Source: a virus
Length of the DNA stretch: 50,424 bases
Virus record (IMG/VR): IMGVR_UViG_3300045971_000210
Coordinates: 1-50,424 of that record
Reading direction: 5' to 3' (one strand)
Part shown: piece by piece, positions 13,956 to 48,281 of the stretch
Layout: each line of letters starts with the position of its first letter
Position numbering within the stretch: position 1 is the first letter of the stretch
Notes under the pieces: model-generated
What the model saw: only the letters and a program-made list of their open reading frames with translations
What the model was told of the DNA's origin: nothing
Databases searched by the model: none
Program-made: the position numbers and the translations under genes

Positions 13956-15146
13956 ATGGTCACAGCAGCCGGTGTCAAGATTAAAGTTAAAGCAAAAACA
14001 AAACGCGAGCCAAACGCAAAACTGGGCGCACTTGGCGAGCCAATTTGGGACGCTGACAGGGCAATTTGCTTTGAAGACGCAGAGTACGATCACTATTTGC
14101 GCAAGAGCTTGAATTACTACAATTACAACTTTACGCAAAAGGACTTGAAAAAGTATGTAGCGGTGTGGATGCACGAGAATGCCAAATGGGGCAAGGAAGA
14201 GCTCGCAGCATACGCTGACACTGAACCCACAAAAACATCGATGACGCTTTGCGGCGTTGTTAAAGCAGCAGGCATGGGCATGCCAATCCGCGAAAAGGAC
14301 AAAAAGTACCTGATTAGCGAAATGAACGCCGTAATTGCGCCTGTACTTGCTGAGCACAAAGCAGCAGCAGAAGCAGCAAAGCTGATTGCCAAGGTTAAGG
14401 GGCAAACAGTGTATGCAGCACCTACAATCCAGGACCGTCTCGCTGAGAAAACAGCAGAGGTGATTGGCGAGATTGAAGGGCAAGTTGACAACATTTTTGC
14501 TAACAAGCCCATGGACTTCAAAATCTACGACTTCCTTACAACTAAGGGCGTAGCACAGTCGCAAATTGGCAAAATCCGCGCAGTGTTTCAACGGCAGATT
14601 GAAGAAATCACAGCATACGTTGGGGGCAAGGACGCTCAACTGAAGGAAGCATACGCACATTTGAAGAAAGCAGACTTGAAGCGCATTGGCGACTTTTACG
14701 TTAAGCTGATGGCTGATTTGGATAGCTATACGCAAGTTAAAAAGGCTGTGAAAAAAGCCCGCGTCAAGAAAGCAGTGCCAGCAGTGAAGCTGGTGAACAA
14801 GGTTAAGTACATGAAAGAGGACAAAGCACTCAAGATTGTGTCCATTAACCCAGCGCACATTGTTGGCGCTAAGGAACTGTGGTGCTTTGACACTAAGACC
14901 CGCAAGCTGATACACTATGTTGCTGATCAGTATGCGCTGGAGTTAAGTGTGAAAGGCACAACGATCCAAGGCTTTGACACTACGAAAAGCATTGCTAAGA
15001 CACTGCGTAAGCCTGAAGTTTCTTTACATGAATTTATGAAAACTAGCAAAATTCAGCGCAGGACTTACATGCAGCAAATTAAAGCAGTTGAGGTGCGAGC
15101 TACCGGCAGGCTAAATGAAAATCAGTTATTGATCAGGGTTGACTAA
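13956..15146 (+). CDS. Conserved hypothetical phage protein with basic linker, early unit gene 2
   Basis: 396 residues, preceded by CGGAG about 8 bases before ATG. The N-terminus is Lys-rich (VKIKVKAKTKREPN). The middle is helical, with YFVKL-type segments and HLKKADLKRIGDFYVKLM, followed by a very basic linker KKAVKKARVKKA and a globular end containing SINPAHIVGAKELWCFDTKT, KGTTIQGFD, KTLRKPEVSL. The C-terminal block is one I recognise as widespread in aquatic T4-like phages without known function. Basic charge suggests nucleic-acid or ribosome contact, but this is inference. Its 3' end overlaps by 21 bases with the convergent GIY-YIG gene. Confidence 0.65.
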   Translation: MVTAAGVKIKVKAKTKREPNAKLGALGEPIWDADRAICFEDAEYDHYLRKSLNYYNYNFTQKDLKKYVAVWMHENAKWGKEELAAYADTEPTKTSMTLCGVVKAAGMGMPIREKDKKYLISEMNAVIAPVLAEHKAAAEAAKLIAKVKGQTVYAAPTIQDRLAEKTAEVIGEIEGQVDNIFANKPMDFKIYDFLTTKGVAQSQIGKIRAVFQRQIEEITAYVGGKDAQLKEAYAHLKKADLKRIGDFYVKLMADLDSYTQVKKAVKKARVKKAVPAVKLVNKVKYMKEDKALKIVSINPAHIVGAKELWCFDTKTRKLIHYVADQYALELSVKGTTIQGFDTTKSIAKTLRKPEVSLHEFMKTSKIQRRTYMQQIKAVEVRATGRLNENQLLIRVD

Positions 15147-15824
15147 CTGCCAGCCCAAGGATGATTTAATTCTACCGCGTATTAAGTTGCTTACGTTGCC
15201 GCGGCGTAACCCAAATGATTTAACCATATCATCCTGTGTCATTGAAACTCGAACTGAGGTAGATACATGTTCAAAGCAATACACAGTGTGGTTATACAAT
15301 GGATTATTCTTGCCCTTACGTTTATTTGAAATTTCTGGGGTTAACATCGGATTATAGATATTCTTTTTGTGCTCAGCAGATTTTGCTTTGCCCTTGAGTT
15401 TACTTGAAATTTTGTCCCTGTATTCTTGATTATTCATTGGGTTATTTTGAATCATGCGTATTCTATGTTTGGGATCTTTCATACAGTTATTGGCACTAGC
15501 TAACGCTCTGTATTCTGGCAATTTCATATGGAGCCCGCTACTAGGATAAGCGCCACCGTCACCCGTTTCAAATTTTAAATTTGCCCACGCATGATCTTCA
15601 ACTACATTAAACAATTTGCTGTAATAAATGCCCCATTCTTTAACTTCAGCGGCAGTTTCACACTCGCGCAGTATTTCAGTGTCAAAGTAATACCCATGAA
15701 CTTTTAAGTGATTAGTCCACCGTGTCCCAGATCCAGGGTATTTTATGGGATTTTTAGCTTTGGTTTTTCCAAGATATTTTAATCCAGTTATCTTGTGAGT
15801 TTTAACATACAAATAAATACACAT
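15126..15824 (-). CDS. GIY-YIG homing endonuclease (Seg-like)
   Basis: 232 residues. The N-terminus carries a diverged GIY-YIG core (IYLYVKTHKITGLKYLGKT; usual order GIY then YIG) followed by conserved Arg/Glu positions of a small nuclease. Downstream are NUMOD3-like DNA-binding segments (MNNQEYRDKISSKLKGKAKS, NPMLTPEISNKRKGKNNPLY) and a NUMOD1-like C-terminus (VSMTQDDMVKSFGLRRGNVS then LIRGRIKSSLGWQLV). Such free-standing endonucleases cut intron-less alleles and spread by recombination. It sits between the early unit and gp13, transcribed leftward from its own late promoter through a conserved leader shared with two other GIY-YIG genes. Confidence 0.85.
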   Translation of the reverse strand: MCIYLYVKTHKITGLKYLGKTKAKNPIKYPGSGTRWTNHLKVHGYYFDTEILRECETAAEVKEWGIYYSKLFNVVEDHAWANLKFETGDGGAYPSSGLHMKLPEYRALASANNCMKDPKHRIRMIQNNPMNNQEYRDKISSKLKGKAKSAEHKKNIYNPMLTPEISNKRKGKNNPLYNHTVYCFEHVSTSVRVSMTQDDMVKSFGLRRGNVSNLIRGRIKSSLGWQLVNPDQ

Positions 15825-15882
15825 GCTGATTGTCTCCTACGACATTAGAGTATCTGGGCCGGCAAGCCGCGAGATACACTAG
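15825..15882 (-). promoter_or_regulatory. Conserved hairpin leader of GIY-YIG gene (copy A)
   Basis: On the minus strand the 5' leader holds GTATCT...AGATAC (plus-strand 15850-15855 with 15872-15877) closing an inner CGGC..GCCG hairpin, then CTCTAATGTCG and AGGAGACAATCAGC right before the ATG. Two other GIY-YIG genes (39380 and 48212) carry the same arrangement. Confidence 0.75.
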
Positions 15883-15896
15883 TATTTAGCTAAATA
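15883..15896. promoter_or_regulatory. Palindromic divergent late promoter (TATTTAGCTAAATA)
   Basis: The 14-base sequence is a perfect palindrome. Rightward it gives GCTAAATA 20 bases upstream of gp13. Leftward it gives the same octamer upstream of the GIY-YIG leader. Late promoters in this phage include NCTAAATA as well as NATAAATA, e.g. before the tail tube gene. Confidence 0.6.
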
Positions 15897-15915: not shown

Positions 15916-16698
15916 ATGAGCACCACCATTGCCAACTCAATAGAGGGTTTAGACACTCTAATAGATAAAAAAACAGACATTATTGACTATATCAAGTTGC
16001 GACTTGGTCATCAAATGGTTGATGTAGAGCTGGACAAAGAGCACTACGACATGGCTATAAAGCAAGCGTTAGTCCGTTATCGCAGTCGCACAGAGCACTC
16101 AGTTGAGGAATCATACGCATTCTTAGAGTTGCTTGCTGATACACAAGAATACATCCTGCCAAAAGAGATTACGTCGGTTCGCCAAATATTCCGTCGCGGG
16201 GTTGGCGGCCTTTCCAATGCGTCACAGTTTGAGCCATTCAGTTCAGGCTTCCTTAACACTTACATGCTGGTTGCTGGCCGTGTTGGCGGGCTTACAAACT
16301 ACGAGTTATTTGTTGACTACCAAAAGTTAACCATGACAATGTTTGGCGGTTACATTAACTTTACGTTCAACGAGTCAACGAAAAAACTTACGATCCAGCG
16401 TAAAATGACGGGTGCAAGCGAAAGCGTTTTGCTATGGGTTTATAACTACAAGCCAGATCAAGTTATTTTGAACGATACACGCTCATTCCCATGGATACAA
16501 GACTACGCATACAGCATGGCAAAGCACATGTTGGGCGAAGCAAGGGAAAAGTTCGCAACAATCTCTGGGCCACAAGGCGGGTCATCGCTTAACGGCACTG
16601 CGTTAAAAACAGAAGCAAAAGAGGAAATGGCATCACTGATGGACGACTTAGGCAAATACAGTGATGGCTCTACGCCTCTTACTTTCGTTATAGGATAA
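15916..16698 (+). CDS. 13: Neck/head-completion protein, gp13-like
   Basis: 260 residues. Key stretches are DTLIDKKTDIIDYIKLRLGH and VDVELDKEHYDMAIKQALVR near the N-terminus, then LPKEITSVRQIFRRGVGG, a middle beta part, and FPWIQDYAYSMAKHMLGEAR with a helical end KEEMASLMDDL. This layout matches gp13-type neck proteins of aquatic T4-like phages, which bind the portal after DNA packaging and recruit gp14 and the tail. T4 gp13 is about 309 residues, so length is near. Its gp14 and gp15 partners are encoded on the opposite strand 2.3 kb away, separated by an early unit and a homing endonuclease. TTAAAGGAC gives the ribosome site. Confidence 0.7.
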   Translation: MSTTIANSIEGLDTLIDKKTDIIDYIKLRLGHQMVDVELDKEHYDMAIKQALVRYRSRTEHSVEESYAFLELLADTQEYILPKEITSVRQIFRRGVGGLSNASQFEPFSSGFLNTYMLVAGRVGGLTNYELFVDYQKLTMTMFGGYINFTFNESTKKLTIQRKMTGASESVLLWVYNYKPDQVILNDTRSFPWIQDYAYSMAKHMLGEAREKFATISGPQGGSSLNGTALKTEAKEEMASLMDDLGKYSDGSTPLTFVIG

Positions 16699-29553: not shown

Positions 29554-30216
29554 ATGATGCATTATAGACAAATTTTCGAGGAACAACACGGGGCCATTCC
29601 AAAGGATAGTGATGGGCGAACATTTGATATTCACCATATCGATGGTAATCACCAAAATAATGATGTTAATAATTTAATAGCAGTAAGTATTAAAGAGCAT
29701 TATGATATTCATTATTCTCGGGGTGACTATGCAGCATGCTTATTAATAGATAAAAGAATGAAGTTTCCAGTGTTAAGTTCAGAAGAGAGAAGCAAACTTT
29801 CTACCATGCATAACTTGCGTCGGTCAGCAAATGGCACTAATCCGTTCTTAGACGGAGAAGTGGCAAGGAAATCTGCCAATGCTCGTGTTGCAAATGGCAC
29901 ACATAATTGGTTAGGTAGTGAACACGCAGTTAAGACAAATAAGAAAAAAATTGAAAATGGAACTCACCACTTGCTAACGCGAGCAGATGGGTCAAGTTTG
30001 TCAAAAGATCGGGTTAATAATAAAACACATCACCTATTACGTCGTGAAGATGGCTCAAGTTTAGCATCAGATAGAGTAAAATCAGGAACTCACCATTTGG
30101 TTACCAATAATCCAAGCAAAATTAAAGTAACATGTCCACATTGCCAAAAACTTGGCGGCTTCCCAAACATGAAACGATACCATTTTGAAAATTGCAAATT
30201 AAGGAAAATTCAATGA
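29554..30216 (+). CDS. HNH homing endonuclease with zinc-finger C-terminus
   Basis: 220 residues. HNH core FDIHHIDGNHQNNDVNNLIA followed by EHYDIHYSRGDYAA is the typical HNH variant of phage homing endonucleases. The middle is repetitive (GTHHLLTRADGSSLSKDRV, GTHHLVTNNPSK), a DNA-binding repeat used in this group. The C-terminus carries CPHCQKLGGFPNMKRYHFEN plus Cys, a zinc finger also present twice in the GIY-YIG protein at 39380. It starts two bases after the upstream stop and its 3' end overlaps the next start by 4 bases. Confidence 0.85.
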   Translation: MMHYRQIFEEQHGAIPKDSDGRTFDIHHIDGNHQNNDVNNLIAVSIKEHYDIHYSRGDYAACLLIDKRMKFPVLSSEERSKLSTMHNLRRSANGTNPFLDGEVARKSANARVANGTHNWLGSEHAVKTNKKKIENGTHHLLTRADGSSLSKDRVNNKTHHLLRREDGSSLASDRVKSGTHHLVTNNPSKIKVTCPHCQKLGGFPNMKRYHFENCKLRKIQ

Positions 30217-39312: not shown

Positions 39313-39320
39313 GATAAATA
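39313..39320 (+). promoter_or_regulatory. Late promoter GATAAATA of GIY-YIG gene (leader copy B)
   Basis: GATAAATA followed by AAGGTGTAG, the same opening as leader copy C on the minus strand at 48274-48281. Confidence 0.65.
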
Positions 39321-39379
39321 AAGGTGTAGTTCGCGGCTGGCCGGCCCAACTACTCTAATGTCGTAAGGAGACAATCAGC
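39321..39379 (+). promoter_or_regulatory. Conserved hairpin leader of GIY-YIG gene (copy B)
   Basis: GTAGTT (39326-39331) pairs with AACTAC (39348-39353) around an inner CGG/CCG hairpin with GGCC-rich loop. Then CTCTAATGTCG and AAGGAGACAATCAGC lead into ATG. Outer stem differs from copy A (GTATCT/AGATAC) by compensating changes. Confidence 0.8.
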
Positions 39380-40057
39380 ATGAATATTTATGCGTCAAGC
39401 AAAGTAAAGCCATATGTTTACGTGGGGATACATAAAATCACAGGTGAGATTTATATTGGCTATCGTGAGGACAATGTAAGAGTAAATAGAACATCTGACG
39501 TAGATTTATTTGAATATAGAACTTCATCAAAAGTAGTCAATCCGAGATTTGATGAATACGATTGGATTATTGTAGCTGAATTTGACACTGGTAACGACGC
39601 ATACGACTTCGAACAACAATTGATCTTTGAGAATTGGATGAATCCATTGCTTCTAAATAAAAATTGCCACTATGGAAATAAGAAACGATTTAAAACTAGC
39701 ACCAAAGGTAGAAAAGTTGGGCCGCAATCACTGCGAAGCCGAATAGCCAAATCAGTCGCAACTCGAGGAATACCTAAATCCGCATCATTTGGCCCTAAAG
39801 TTTCAGCAAAATTGAAAGGAAGACCAACTGGCAGAAAGGGTGAAGAATCCCCAAAGAAAGGCATTCCACAAGAAATTATAATTTGCTCGCATTGCGGAAA
39901 AACTGGCGGTGAATCAAATATGAGAAGATACCATTTTGAAAATTGTTCAAAGAAAATTGAAATTAGGCCAACAGTCACCTGTCCACACTGCCAAAAGACT
40001 GGCGGAATAAATGTAATGTCAAGATGGCATTTTGAAAATTGTAAAATGGCTAGATAG
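39380..40057 (+). CDS. GIY-YIG homing endonuclease with two C-terminal zinc fingers
   Basis: 225 residues. GIY-YIG core VYVGIHKITGEIYIGYR at residues 13-29; catalytic Glu region AYDFEQQLIFENW. A short basic linker (KTSTKGRKVGPQSLRSRIAK, GRPTGRKGEESP) follows. The C-terminus has two related zinc fingers, CSHCGKTGGESNMRRYHFEN and CPHCQKTGGINVMSRWHFEN, each closing with Cys. The same finger occurs in the HNH protein at 29554 and diverged forms in the GIY-YIG proteins at 44540 and 47628, so DNA-binding ends are being exchanged between nuclease families. Own late promoter and conserved leader. Confidence 0.87.
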   Translation: MNIYASSKVKPYVYVGIHKITGEIYIGYREDNVRVNRTSDVDLFEYRTSSKVVNPRFDEYDWIIVAEFDTGNDAYDFEQQLIFENWMNPLLLNKNCHYGNKKRFKTSTKGRKVGPQSLRSRIAKSVATRGIPKSASFGPKVSAKLKGRPTGRKGEESPKKGIPQEIIICSHCGKTGGESNMRRYHFENCSKKIEIRPTVTCPHCQKTGGINVMSRWHFENCKMAR

Positions 40058-46879: not shown

Positions 46880-47631
46880 TGGCAGATAACTTTAAAGACG
46901 TCTACGCGAGTCACGATCACTCGCTTAGAGTGTTAGAGATTTTGGGTGGCTACGATAGTTTTATGGATAGCTTAACTACAGTCGTAGACATGGGCGCAGG
47001 CTCTGGCTTAGACATAAACTGGTGGGCAACAGCGGAGTCGTGGGACGGTGAGGAGCACAGGCCTTATAACTTTGACTGCTATGCGGTGGACAAAAACGTT
47101 ACAGAGTTAACAGACTTACCTAAAAACGTTACTGTCATTGAAGCAGATTTTGAAAAGTTTTCAATGCGTAAGAAGATAGACTTGCTATGGTGCCACGACA
47201 CTTTCCAGTTCGCATTAAACCCGTTGGAAACATTGCGGTCATGGAATCAGCAAATGTCTGTAAACGGCATGCTTGTTCTTATCCTACCACAAACATCAAG
47301 CTATCAATACAATCGCTTCGTTAACCGCGTCTATGATGGTTGCTACTATAACTATAACGTGTGTAACTTGCTTTACATGTTGGCGTTAAATGGGTTTGAC
47401 TGTAAAGACTCATACATGTACAAGGCACCAAACGATCCATGGATTCACCTAGCAGTGTACAAGTCAGGAATACCTCCAATGGACCCAGGTACTACACGCT
47501 GGTACGATTTAGCAGACAAGGGCTTACTACATGACTCTATTGCTGGGTCAGTAAACAAGTATGGATACTTGAGGCAAGAGGATATTATTTTGCCCTGGCT
47601 CGACAAATCGTTTTATTTTGTCAAGGATTAA
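46879..47631 (+). CDS. SAM-dependent methyltransferase
   Basis: 250 residues. Class I motif I VVDMGAGSGLDINWWA at residues 35-50, acidic motif II (YAVDKN), motif with EADFEKF, and IDLLWCHDTFQFALNPLETL then SVNGMLVLILPQTSSYQYNR. Such enzymes transfer a methyl group from S-adenosylmethionine; the target (small molecule, RNA, protein or lipid) is not readable. Start in TAATG overlap with the preceding gene, so translation is coupled. 3' end overlaps the convergent GIY-YIG gene by 4 bases. Confidence 0.78.
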   Translation: MADNFKDVYASHDHSLRVLEILGGYDSFMDSLTTVVDMGAGSGLDINWWATAESWDGEEHRPYNFDCYAVDKNVTELTDLPKNVTVIEADFEKFSMRKKIDLLWCHDTFQFALNPLETLRSWNQQMSVNGMLVLILPQTSSYQYNRFVNRVYDGCYYNYNVCNLLYMLALNGFDCKDSYMYKAPNDPWIHLAVYKSGIPPMDPGTTRWYDLADKGLLHDSIAGSVNKYGYLRQEDIILPWLDKSFYFVKD

Positions 47632-48212
47632 TGTTTGCAATTAGCGCCGTGGTGCTTAGTATAGTTGCCAATGTTAGTGACAGTTTTACAAGTTAAGCAT
47701 GACGCCTTTATGACATGATACGTTTTCTTGACTCCCTCGGATATACGACGTTTAGTCTCATCTGACAGGCTCTGCCCAAAATTTTTATGGTTACTTCCAG
47801 CGTGAGCAGCCGATAGATTGTTACGGTGTTCTTTTGAAAACGGTCCTTTTGCCCTACCGGTATGTGCCTTAGACATTGCAGCCCTAGTCTTCTCACTGTG
47901 GGTCATGCCTGACACGCCAGTGCCCCCGTCAGTTCTGTTTTGTAAAATGCCAGTTTTGTTATTTTTGCGACCATACCACCTAATCATGCGGCGCTCAAGA
48001 GCAAGAGCACCGATCTCTGACAAATTTTGTTCGAGTATTACTATTTTAGAAAAGTCTCGTGGGGTAGATATGCTGCATCCGTTTTTATGATGTTGAACAA
48101 ATGCTCGCGTACCAATACCTTTGCCTATATAATATGGAGTTGAATTTGATTTACGTATATATGCGTAAACATAAAATCCCTGTGGCGGATTTGTTCTGGA
48201 ATAAATATTCAT
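47628..48212 (-). CDS. GIY-YIG homing endonuclease
   Basis: 194 residues. GIY-YIG core FYVYAYIRKSNSTPYYIGKG, then LALERRMIRWYGRKNNKTGI, an Arg/Glu-rich catalytic region with LxNRTDGGTG. NUMOD3-type segments follow (GVSGMTHSEKTRAAMSKAHT, GPFSKEHRNNLSAAHAGSNH, DETKRRISEGVKKTYH). A C-terminal finger CLTCKTVTNIGNYTKHHGAN plus Cys is a diverged form of that in the 44540 gene. Leftward from its own late promoter and conserved leader (copy C). Confidence 0.87.
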   Translation of the reverse strand: MNIYSRTNPPQGFYVYAYIRKSNSTPYYIGKGIGTRAFVQHHKNGCSISTPRDFSKIVILEQNLSEIGALALERRMIRWYGRKNNKTGILQNRTDGGTGVSGMTHSEKTRAAMSKAHTGRAKGPFSKEHRNNLSAAHAGSNHKNFGQSLSDETKRRISEGVKKTYHVIKASCLTCKTVTNIGNYTKHHGANCKH

Positions 48213-48273
48213 GCTGATTGCTCCTTGAAAGCGTTAGGGTAGTCGGGGATTGCCGTCCCGCGGGCTACACCTT
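48213..48273 (-). promoter_or_regulatory. Conserved hairpin leader of GIY-YIG gene (copy C)
   Basis: On the minus strand: GGTGTAG, hairpin (plus-strand 48239-48244 with 48263-48268, inner GGGA/TCCC), CCCTAACG, and CAAGGAGCAATCAGC before ATG. Outer stem GTAG/CTAC and Shine-Dalgarno/start context match copies A and B while the inner bases differ. Confidence 0.75.
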
Positions 48274-48281
48274 TATTTATC
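48274..48281 (-). promoter_or_regulatory. Late promoter GATAAATA (leftward) for leader copy C
   Basis: Plus strand TATTTATC. On the minus strand GATAAATAAAGGTGTAG, the same as in copy B. Confidence 0.65.

Follow-up and report, generated by a model that had tools for sequence, protein, structure and literature searches.

A probable antisense RNA brake built into the homing endonuclease genes of large phages

Large phages contain mobile homing endonuclease genes, each of which is probably equipped with an antisense RNA brake of its own. In the window, by which we mean the whole 50,424-nucleotide stretch of viral DNA analyzed here, three such genes are preceded by a common leader and, judged by its non-Watson-Crick pairs, the fold under selection in this leader is that of the antisense strand. 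The covarying structure, the strand that folds, the promoter-like hexamers on both sides and the link to endonucleases can be read directly from the sequence. From this arrangement we infer transcription, with its start sites, an antisense transcript and the 3' end of that transcript, as well as repression. The explanation that we favor, and consider reasonably probable, is a cis-encoded antisense RNA that would limit endonuclease translation in the manner of IS10 RNA-OUT.

On the mRNA strand, the parts of the leader follow a constant order. TAAATA, in most leaders five bases 5' of what follows, precedes the 5' strand of a 6-bp stem (P1), CRC and a 4-bp stem with a variable loop (P2); then come one base, the 3' strand of P1 (P1'), YCUA, a hairpin with the Shine-Dalgarno sequence in its loop (P3), CAGC and the start codon, which can be ATG, GTG or TTG. 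The position of the start codon after CAGC varies slightly, and TATTTA then lies within codons 2-4. All three leaders described for the window in the earlier note are present (Table 1) and are the only good matches there to the R1 covariance model, which extends from the outer stem to CAGC (next best E 0.85); since the R1 seed of 41 sequences includes the window copies, their scores arise partly by construction and the whole-contig scan is the stronger test. The extent proposed for copy 1 (15825-15896) does contain the leader, but its end at 15896 lies a few bases too far, as the promoter core is at 15883-15888. At the palindrome TATTTAGCTAAATA (15883-15896), two late promoter cores point away from each other, one toward the endonuclease and the other toward a head-tail adaptor gene at 15916. 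Just 5' of copy 2, the window encodes a hemerythrin-like protein (PF01814; 38833-39273, plus strand).

Table 1. Positions of the leader parts and endonuclease genes at the three window copies; promoters and RNA start sites are predictions.
Feature	Position	Strand	Basis
Copy 1, candidate antisense RNA body, two hairpins, predicted +1 G at 15825	15825..15877	+	Antisense covariance model R2, E 4.8e-10
Copy 1, TAAATA, predicted late promoter of antisense RNA, endonuclease codons 2-4	15814..15819	+	Sequence; N5 then G at 15825; kept in relatives
Copy 1, endonuclease mRNA leader, Shine-Dalgarno AGGAG 15834-15838	15825..15877	-	R1 match, E 3e-13
Copy 1, TAAATA, predicted late promoter of endonuclease mRNA	15883..15888	-	Sequence; motif overrepresented before ordinary genes
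Copy 1, homing endonuclease ORF, 232 aa, PHROG 314	15126..15824	-	
Copy 2, candidate antisense RNA body, predicted +1 G at 39379	39326..39379	-	R2, E 6.5e-12
Copy 2, TAAATA, predicted antisense RNA promoter, codons 2-4	39385..39390	-	Sequence
Copy 2, mRNA leader, Shine-Dalgarno AAGGAG 39365-39370	39326..39379	+	R1 match, E 9e-16
Copy 2, TAAATA, predicted late promoter of endonuclease mRNA	39315..39320	+	Within GATAAATA 39313-39320
Copy 2, homing endonuclease ORF, 225 aa, PHROG 314	39380..40057	+	
Copy 3, candidate antisense RNA body, predicted +1 G at 48213	48213..48268	+	R2, E 1.5e-13
Copy 3, TAAATA, predicted antisense RNA promoter, codons 2-4	48202..48207	+	Sequence
Copy 3, mRNA leader, Shine-Dalgarno AAGGAG 48221-48226	48213..48268	-	R1 match, E 5e-17
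Copy 3, TAAATA, predicted late promoter of endonuclease mRNA	48274..48279	-	Within GATAAATA 48274-48281
Copy 3, homing endonuclease ORF, 194 aa, NUMOD3, PHROG 314/655	47628..48212	-	

Covariation is strong in P1, P2 and P3. The compensatory changes that had been noticed in the outer stem proved real: 12 of 14 pairs are changed on both sides, and the observed covariation score was reached by 0 of 500 shuffles. The short elements that had been listed separately exist as well, but UCUA and CAGC pair together and lengthen P3, and the extension co-changes, with UUUA accompanied by CAAC (L250, L255, L257) and the next pair turning from A-U to U-A (L230, L259). The structure of P3 is kept even where the start codon falls inside it (L229, L260, L255, L257). 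Leaders with the start codon inside the 3' strand of P3 form a subclass in which CAGC is translated (L229:3908-3969, L260, L261, L255:5397-5443, L257:3551-3599). Three other interpretations of the leader were discarded: a CsrA-like GGA loop, as GGA sometimes lies outside the loop; a further helix (P0) pairing the outer promoter with TATTTA, which shows neither extension nor covariation and has two exceptions; and a known ribozyme, riboswitch or other Rfam family, as there was no match. In Rfam 15, no family exceeded its curated threshold for the leaders, and the matches in the window were tRNAs only.

RNA stems tolerate G·U pairs, and a true mRNA fold is therefore expected to show G·U and to avoid A·C. 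Among 194 distinct leaders read on the mRNA strand, however, the non-Watson-Crick pairs comprise 369 A·C and 1 G·U, divided (A·C/G·U) into 30/1 in P1, 24/0 in the R-Y pair, 6/0 in P2 and 309/0 in the extended P3. Excluding the long hairpin with its fixed wobble leaves 60 A·C against 1 G·U (binomial p 5e-17), and the strand asymmetry persists when each distinct P1 helix has one vote (p 8e-5). The parser that collected most of the leaders scored G·U as paired and A·C as unpaired, so that its bias favored G·U and ran against this result. Because an A·C mismatch on the mRNA strand is a G·U wobble on the opposite one, the selected fold is, by this reading of the pairs, antisense. Both this signal and the conserved TATTTA inside the ORF had escaped the earlier note.

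Read as antisense RNA, the leader begins with a G and an 8-bp hairpin; a single purine then joins this to a second hairpin of 11 bp, in which two Gs are bulged. This reading leaves 97.2% of the cells paired, compared with 33-52% for slid structures; changes on both sides are found in 16 of 19 pairs, and none of 500 shuffles scored as high. The folding energy of the whole leader is -15.7 kcal/mol on the antisense strand versus -12.4 kcal/mol on the mRNA strand, and that of the Shine-Dalgarno hairpin is -6.1 versus -2.9 kcal/mol, with the antisense hairpin being the more stable in 190 of 190 cases. Within the window, copy 3 has no non-standard pair on the antisense strand and a mismatch in the outer stem on the mRNA strand. 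The fixed A·C sites make sense in this light, because they would loosen the mRNA hairpin at no cost to the antisense RNA.

The fold is flanked by promoter-like hexamers on both strands. For the ordinary genes of these phages, [ACG]TAAATA was counted 333 times in 1037 upstream stretches versus 21 times in coding stretches, mostly 10-40 bases from the start, and TAAATA upstream of such genes occurs 260 times versus 84 times on the opposite strand. Judged by sequence, this enriched core matches the late promoters of T4-like cyanophages (NATAAATA) and of T4 (TATAAATA) (PMC2984593). TATTTA is the reverse complement of this core. A TATTTA-type hexamer was found 3' of the start codon in 59 of 59 model matches above 45 bits, in all three reading frames and outside the model that identified these matches; among ordinary genes it follows the start codon in 10 of 1037. 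Its presence in three frames rules out conservation of an M-x-I-Y peptide as the reason for it. In about 13 of 142 parsed leaders TATTTA is replaced by TACTTA, and TAAGTA, the antisense form of the latter, shows no promoter enrichment at ordinary genes, which counts against the antisense reading. All three window copies carry TAAATA-N5-G on both strands, and in either direction the structured RNA begins with this G; the simplest reading is therefore two convergent late promoters whose transcripts would be complementary over the whole leader. We withdrew a doubt concerning the antisense promoter, raised by TATTTA flanks that differ from those of the outer TAAATA, as ordinary promoters are unconstrained there.

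These observations bear on the suggestion of the earlier note that the mRNA leader itself acts as a translation or timing switch similar to that of T4 I-TevI. Under this view, TATTTA would bind the upstream TAAATA in read-through transcripts only and thereby lock the start site. In its favor, the loop of a hairpin contains the Shine-Dalgarno site, TATTTA and the promoter core are perfect complements, and I-TevI, I-TevII, I-TevIII, segB and mobE all combine RNA structures with a late promoter (PMC2988022). However, A·C replaces G·U on the mRNA strand, where the Shine-Dalgarno hairpin is weak, and the fold is located wholly inside the predicted late transcript. The complementarity of TATTTA and TAAATA ends at six A-U pairs without extension, TATTTAT is still present in two matches that lack the upstream TAAATA, and most upstream neighbors are divergent, which makes read-through unlikely at those loci. 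We thus regard an mRNA switch as quite improbable. Least probable of all, in our estimate, is that the fold acts as bottom-strand single-stranded DNA, for example as a recombination or replication signal. DNA tolerates G·T wobbles, which fits the strand signal, and large phages have much single-stranded DNA during replication, but such a function leaves unexplained both the precisely placed hexamers with a G five bases on and the Shine-Dalgarno site in the loop.

In the antisense brake that we favor, every endonuclease cassette would have a pair of convergent late promoters separated by about 70 bp. The outer promoter (TAAATA, five bases, G) would produce the endonuclease mRNA, with the first base of the outer stem as its 5' end, and the inner promoter, on the opposite strand within codons 2-4, a small antisense RNA of approximately 53-60 nt plus a tail. 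This RNA would start opposite the base just 5' of the start codon region, span the whole leader including the Shine-Dalgarno sequence and fold into two adjacent hairpins (8 bp, and 11 bp with two bulged Gs). It may end in a U-rich stretch after the second hairpin; the stretch preceding P1 is more A-rich than ordinary promoters, which corresponds to U-richness beyond the antisense hairpin. Against this explanation, terminator prediction called none of the intrinsic type around copy 3, and the matches in L231 and L258 lack the outer TAAATA; these two have a U5 tract following the antisense hairpin, with TTGACA directly beyond. Pairing of the antisense RNA with the leader would block ribosome binding and limit endonuclease output, possibly according to copy number; the A·C mismatches would keep the mRNA leader loose, and G·U at the same places would keep the antisense RNA compact.

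Copies within one genome mostly have P1 and P3 in common, and P2 with its loop nearly always differs (12 of 13 and 10 of 11 distinct). Predicted duplex energies are -111 kcal/mol with the own leader versus -62 kcal/mol with other copies of the same genome, on an uncalibrated scale for cross-pairing, and pairing with other copies is thus predicted to be weaker than with the own leader but not negligible. Both bulged Gs and the opening pairs of the long hairpin are nearly invariant, which counts against antisense control, because plain base pairing needs no such constancy. As pairing alone does not explain the bulged Gs, they leave room for a protein partner. The RNA might accordingly be a partner of the endonucleases or of a common phage or host protein (as an RNP, a guide or a chaperone-bound RNA) and not act mainly by pairing with the leader. 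The fixed terminal pairs and the occurrence of one RNA with unrelated nuclease folds would fit such a role together with the bulged Gs. We nevertheless consider it improbable: a common binding site is unlikely because the nuclease domains are unrelated, no variable segment resembling a guide and matching a target was seen, and the RNA spans exactly the mRNA leader. A broader view, in which a new class of phage small RNA, common to unrelated homing endonucleases, serves as a shared copy-number brake in trans or as a protein-bound RNA that these elements need, and so ties distinct selfish genes of one genome together, is less improbable but still unlikely.

The leader module is present in well over 100 further viral contigs, with up to 13 copies per genome, almost always 5' of homing-endonuclease genes of the GIY-YIG and HNH types. 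The earlier note had placed it in front of GIY-YIG genes; other copies precede HNH genes as well. Its view of the leader as a covarying module that selection maintains in its own right, and that moves as part of the mobile unit, was borne out: there are many matches in other phages, nearly all before endonuclease genes of diverse types, and covariation is strong. Searches of whole contigs with the model, which were repeated with the antisense model on 23 contigs, revealed 1 to 13 copies in each of 12 other contigs, including 13 copies apiece in two contigs 361 and 333 kb long. When viral contigs were scanned for sequence patterns, 118, 22 and 58 loci were obtained; the full leader is present in most of the first set and in all of the other two, the remainder of the first set being chance matches to the 16-base pattern, without hairpins. 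Among 75 ORFs behind leaders, the leading Pfam families are HNH_3 (17), NUMOD3 (15), GIY-YIG (6) and SegE_GIY-YIG (2), and at least 44 ORFs behind leaders belong to PHROG homing endonucleases. At leader-bearing loci, the leader accompanies 192 related endonuclease ORFs and is missing from 11, several of which are fragments, although sampling through leaders means that this tally is not a free estimate. A fourth endonuclease in the window (29554-30216, plus strand; HNH type, PHROG 12324) has no leader, and its start abuts the end of the preceding ORF. PA5oct-like jumbo phages are distant relatives of the window phage (52% terminase identity); model searches gave no significant leader match in phage T4 and none whatever in PA5oct. 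A blastn search of the leader consensus against 50,697 phage records returned nothing meaningful, and pattern scans of GTDB genomes, the first with an ill-suited pattern, gave zero leader matches.

Upstream neighbors are divergent in 135 of 192 cases and on the same strand in 57, and the antisense promoter is kept in 131 of the former and 55 of the latter. Since it is retained equally in both orientations, the antisense RNA with its promoter seems to serve the cassette and not the neighbor; for the same reason, the leader is not the 5' region of a divergent neighbor. This also bears on a possible likeness to the put RNAs of phage HK022, in which two stem-loops would act on RNA polymerase, in put through binding to the zinc-binding domain of beta', and thereby let outward late transcription run through terminators and on into the neighbor. 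The HK022 put RNAs measure about 70 nt and have two adjacent stem-loops close to a promoter, putL lying just 3' of its own (PMC9378689); here, too, two stem-loops with conserved bulges are joined by one nucleotide, and divergent neighbors predominate. However, the put RNAs drive anti-termination of early operons, whereas the present RNA is tied to endonuclease genes and indifferent to the gene downstream of it. It is also kept where the upstream neighbor lies on the endonuclease strand, so that this neighbor is antisense to the outward transcript and could not profit, and U-richness beyond the second hairpin points to termination rather than to read-through. We therefore judge a put-like function as improbable as a protein-bound one.

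TGTCAA is found upstream in 34 of 200 leaders, 26 of which have an ATTATA-like box at the right distance, a combination that would read outward as a sigma70-type promoter for the divergent neighbor. Accordingly oriented TTGACA, sometimes together with TATAAT, lies 13-31 bases 5' of P1 in many leaders. Comparison of L172 with the empty sites of L150 and L146 places the cassette just 5' of the -10 box of the neighbor, to which it brings TTGACA. In L152, as compared with L013, the cassette has entered, in antisense orientation, where a primase-like gene overlaps a helicase-like one (names read from the sequence and not from a family search); both stay complete, and the helicase-like gene gains a new ATG and TATAAT. 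Comparison with L013 and L133 shows about 25 bp of target sequence on both sides of the L152 insert, which keeps both genes complete.

Antisense control of mobile elements is known, as is one antisense RNA at a phage endonuclease gene. RNA-OUT of IS10, 69 nt long, is antisense to the translation start of the transposase (PMC5006887). The present case resembles the RNA-OUT/RNA-IN system of IS10/Tn10 in that a mobile element encodes, on the opposite strand, a candidate antisense RNA of similar size, structured and lying over the endonuclease translation start, the Shine-Dalgarno site and the leader. It differs in its late phage-type promoters, in the two hairpins with fixed bulges, in complementarity over the whole leader and in one RNA type being common to unrelated endonuclease families; no sequence relation is claimed. 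CfrI of cyanophage S-PM2, a phage with NATAAATA late promoters, is likewise an antisense RNA at a phage homing-endonuclease gene (PMC2984593). However, CfrI measures approximately 225 nt, is antisense to the endonuclease gene and psbA, and occurs in a single place, whereas the present RNA of about 55 nt covaries, lies over the translation start and is linked to well over a hundred endonucleases. T4 I-TevI, segB and mobE share with our cassettes a late promoter directly 5' of the homing endonuclease gene and RNA structure around the Shine-Dalgarno sequence (PMC2988022). In those genes it is the mRNA that forms the inhibitory structure, which requires sequence 5' of the late start (PMC2988022), whereas here we found no Shine-Dalgarno sequestration through upstream sequence, and the fold under selection belongs to the opposite strand and stays within the leader. 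In Rfam and the literature searched, which mostly lies outside subscription papers, we found no small covarying antisense RNA family on unrelated homing endonucleases.

Free-standing homing endonucleases cut DNA and must be held in check, and our analysis addresses the open question of how large phages tolerate a dozen copies of them. The leader also offers a clear case in which the folded strand, and hence the function, is opposite to that first assumed. If the antisense reading is true, an antisense RNA on each endonuclease would give these elements a general means of control and would account for the exchange of unrelated nuclease domains behind a single expression module. The control of homing-gene copy number would then become directly testable.
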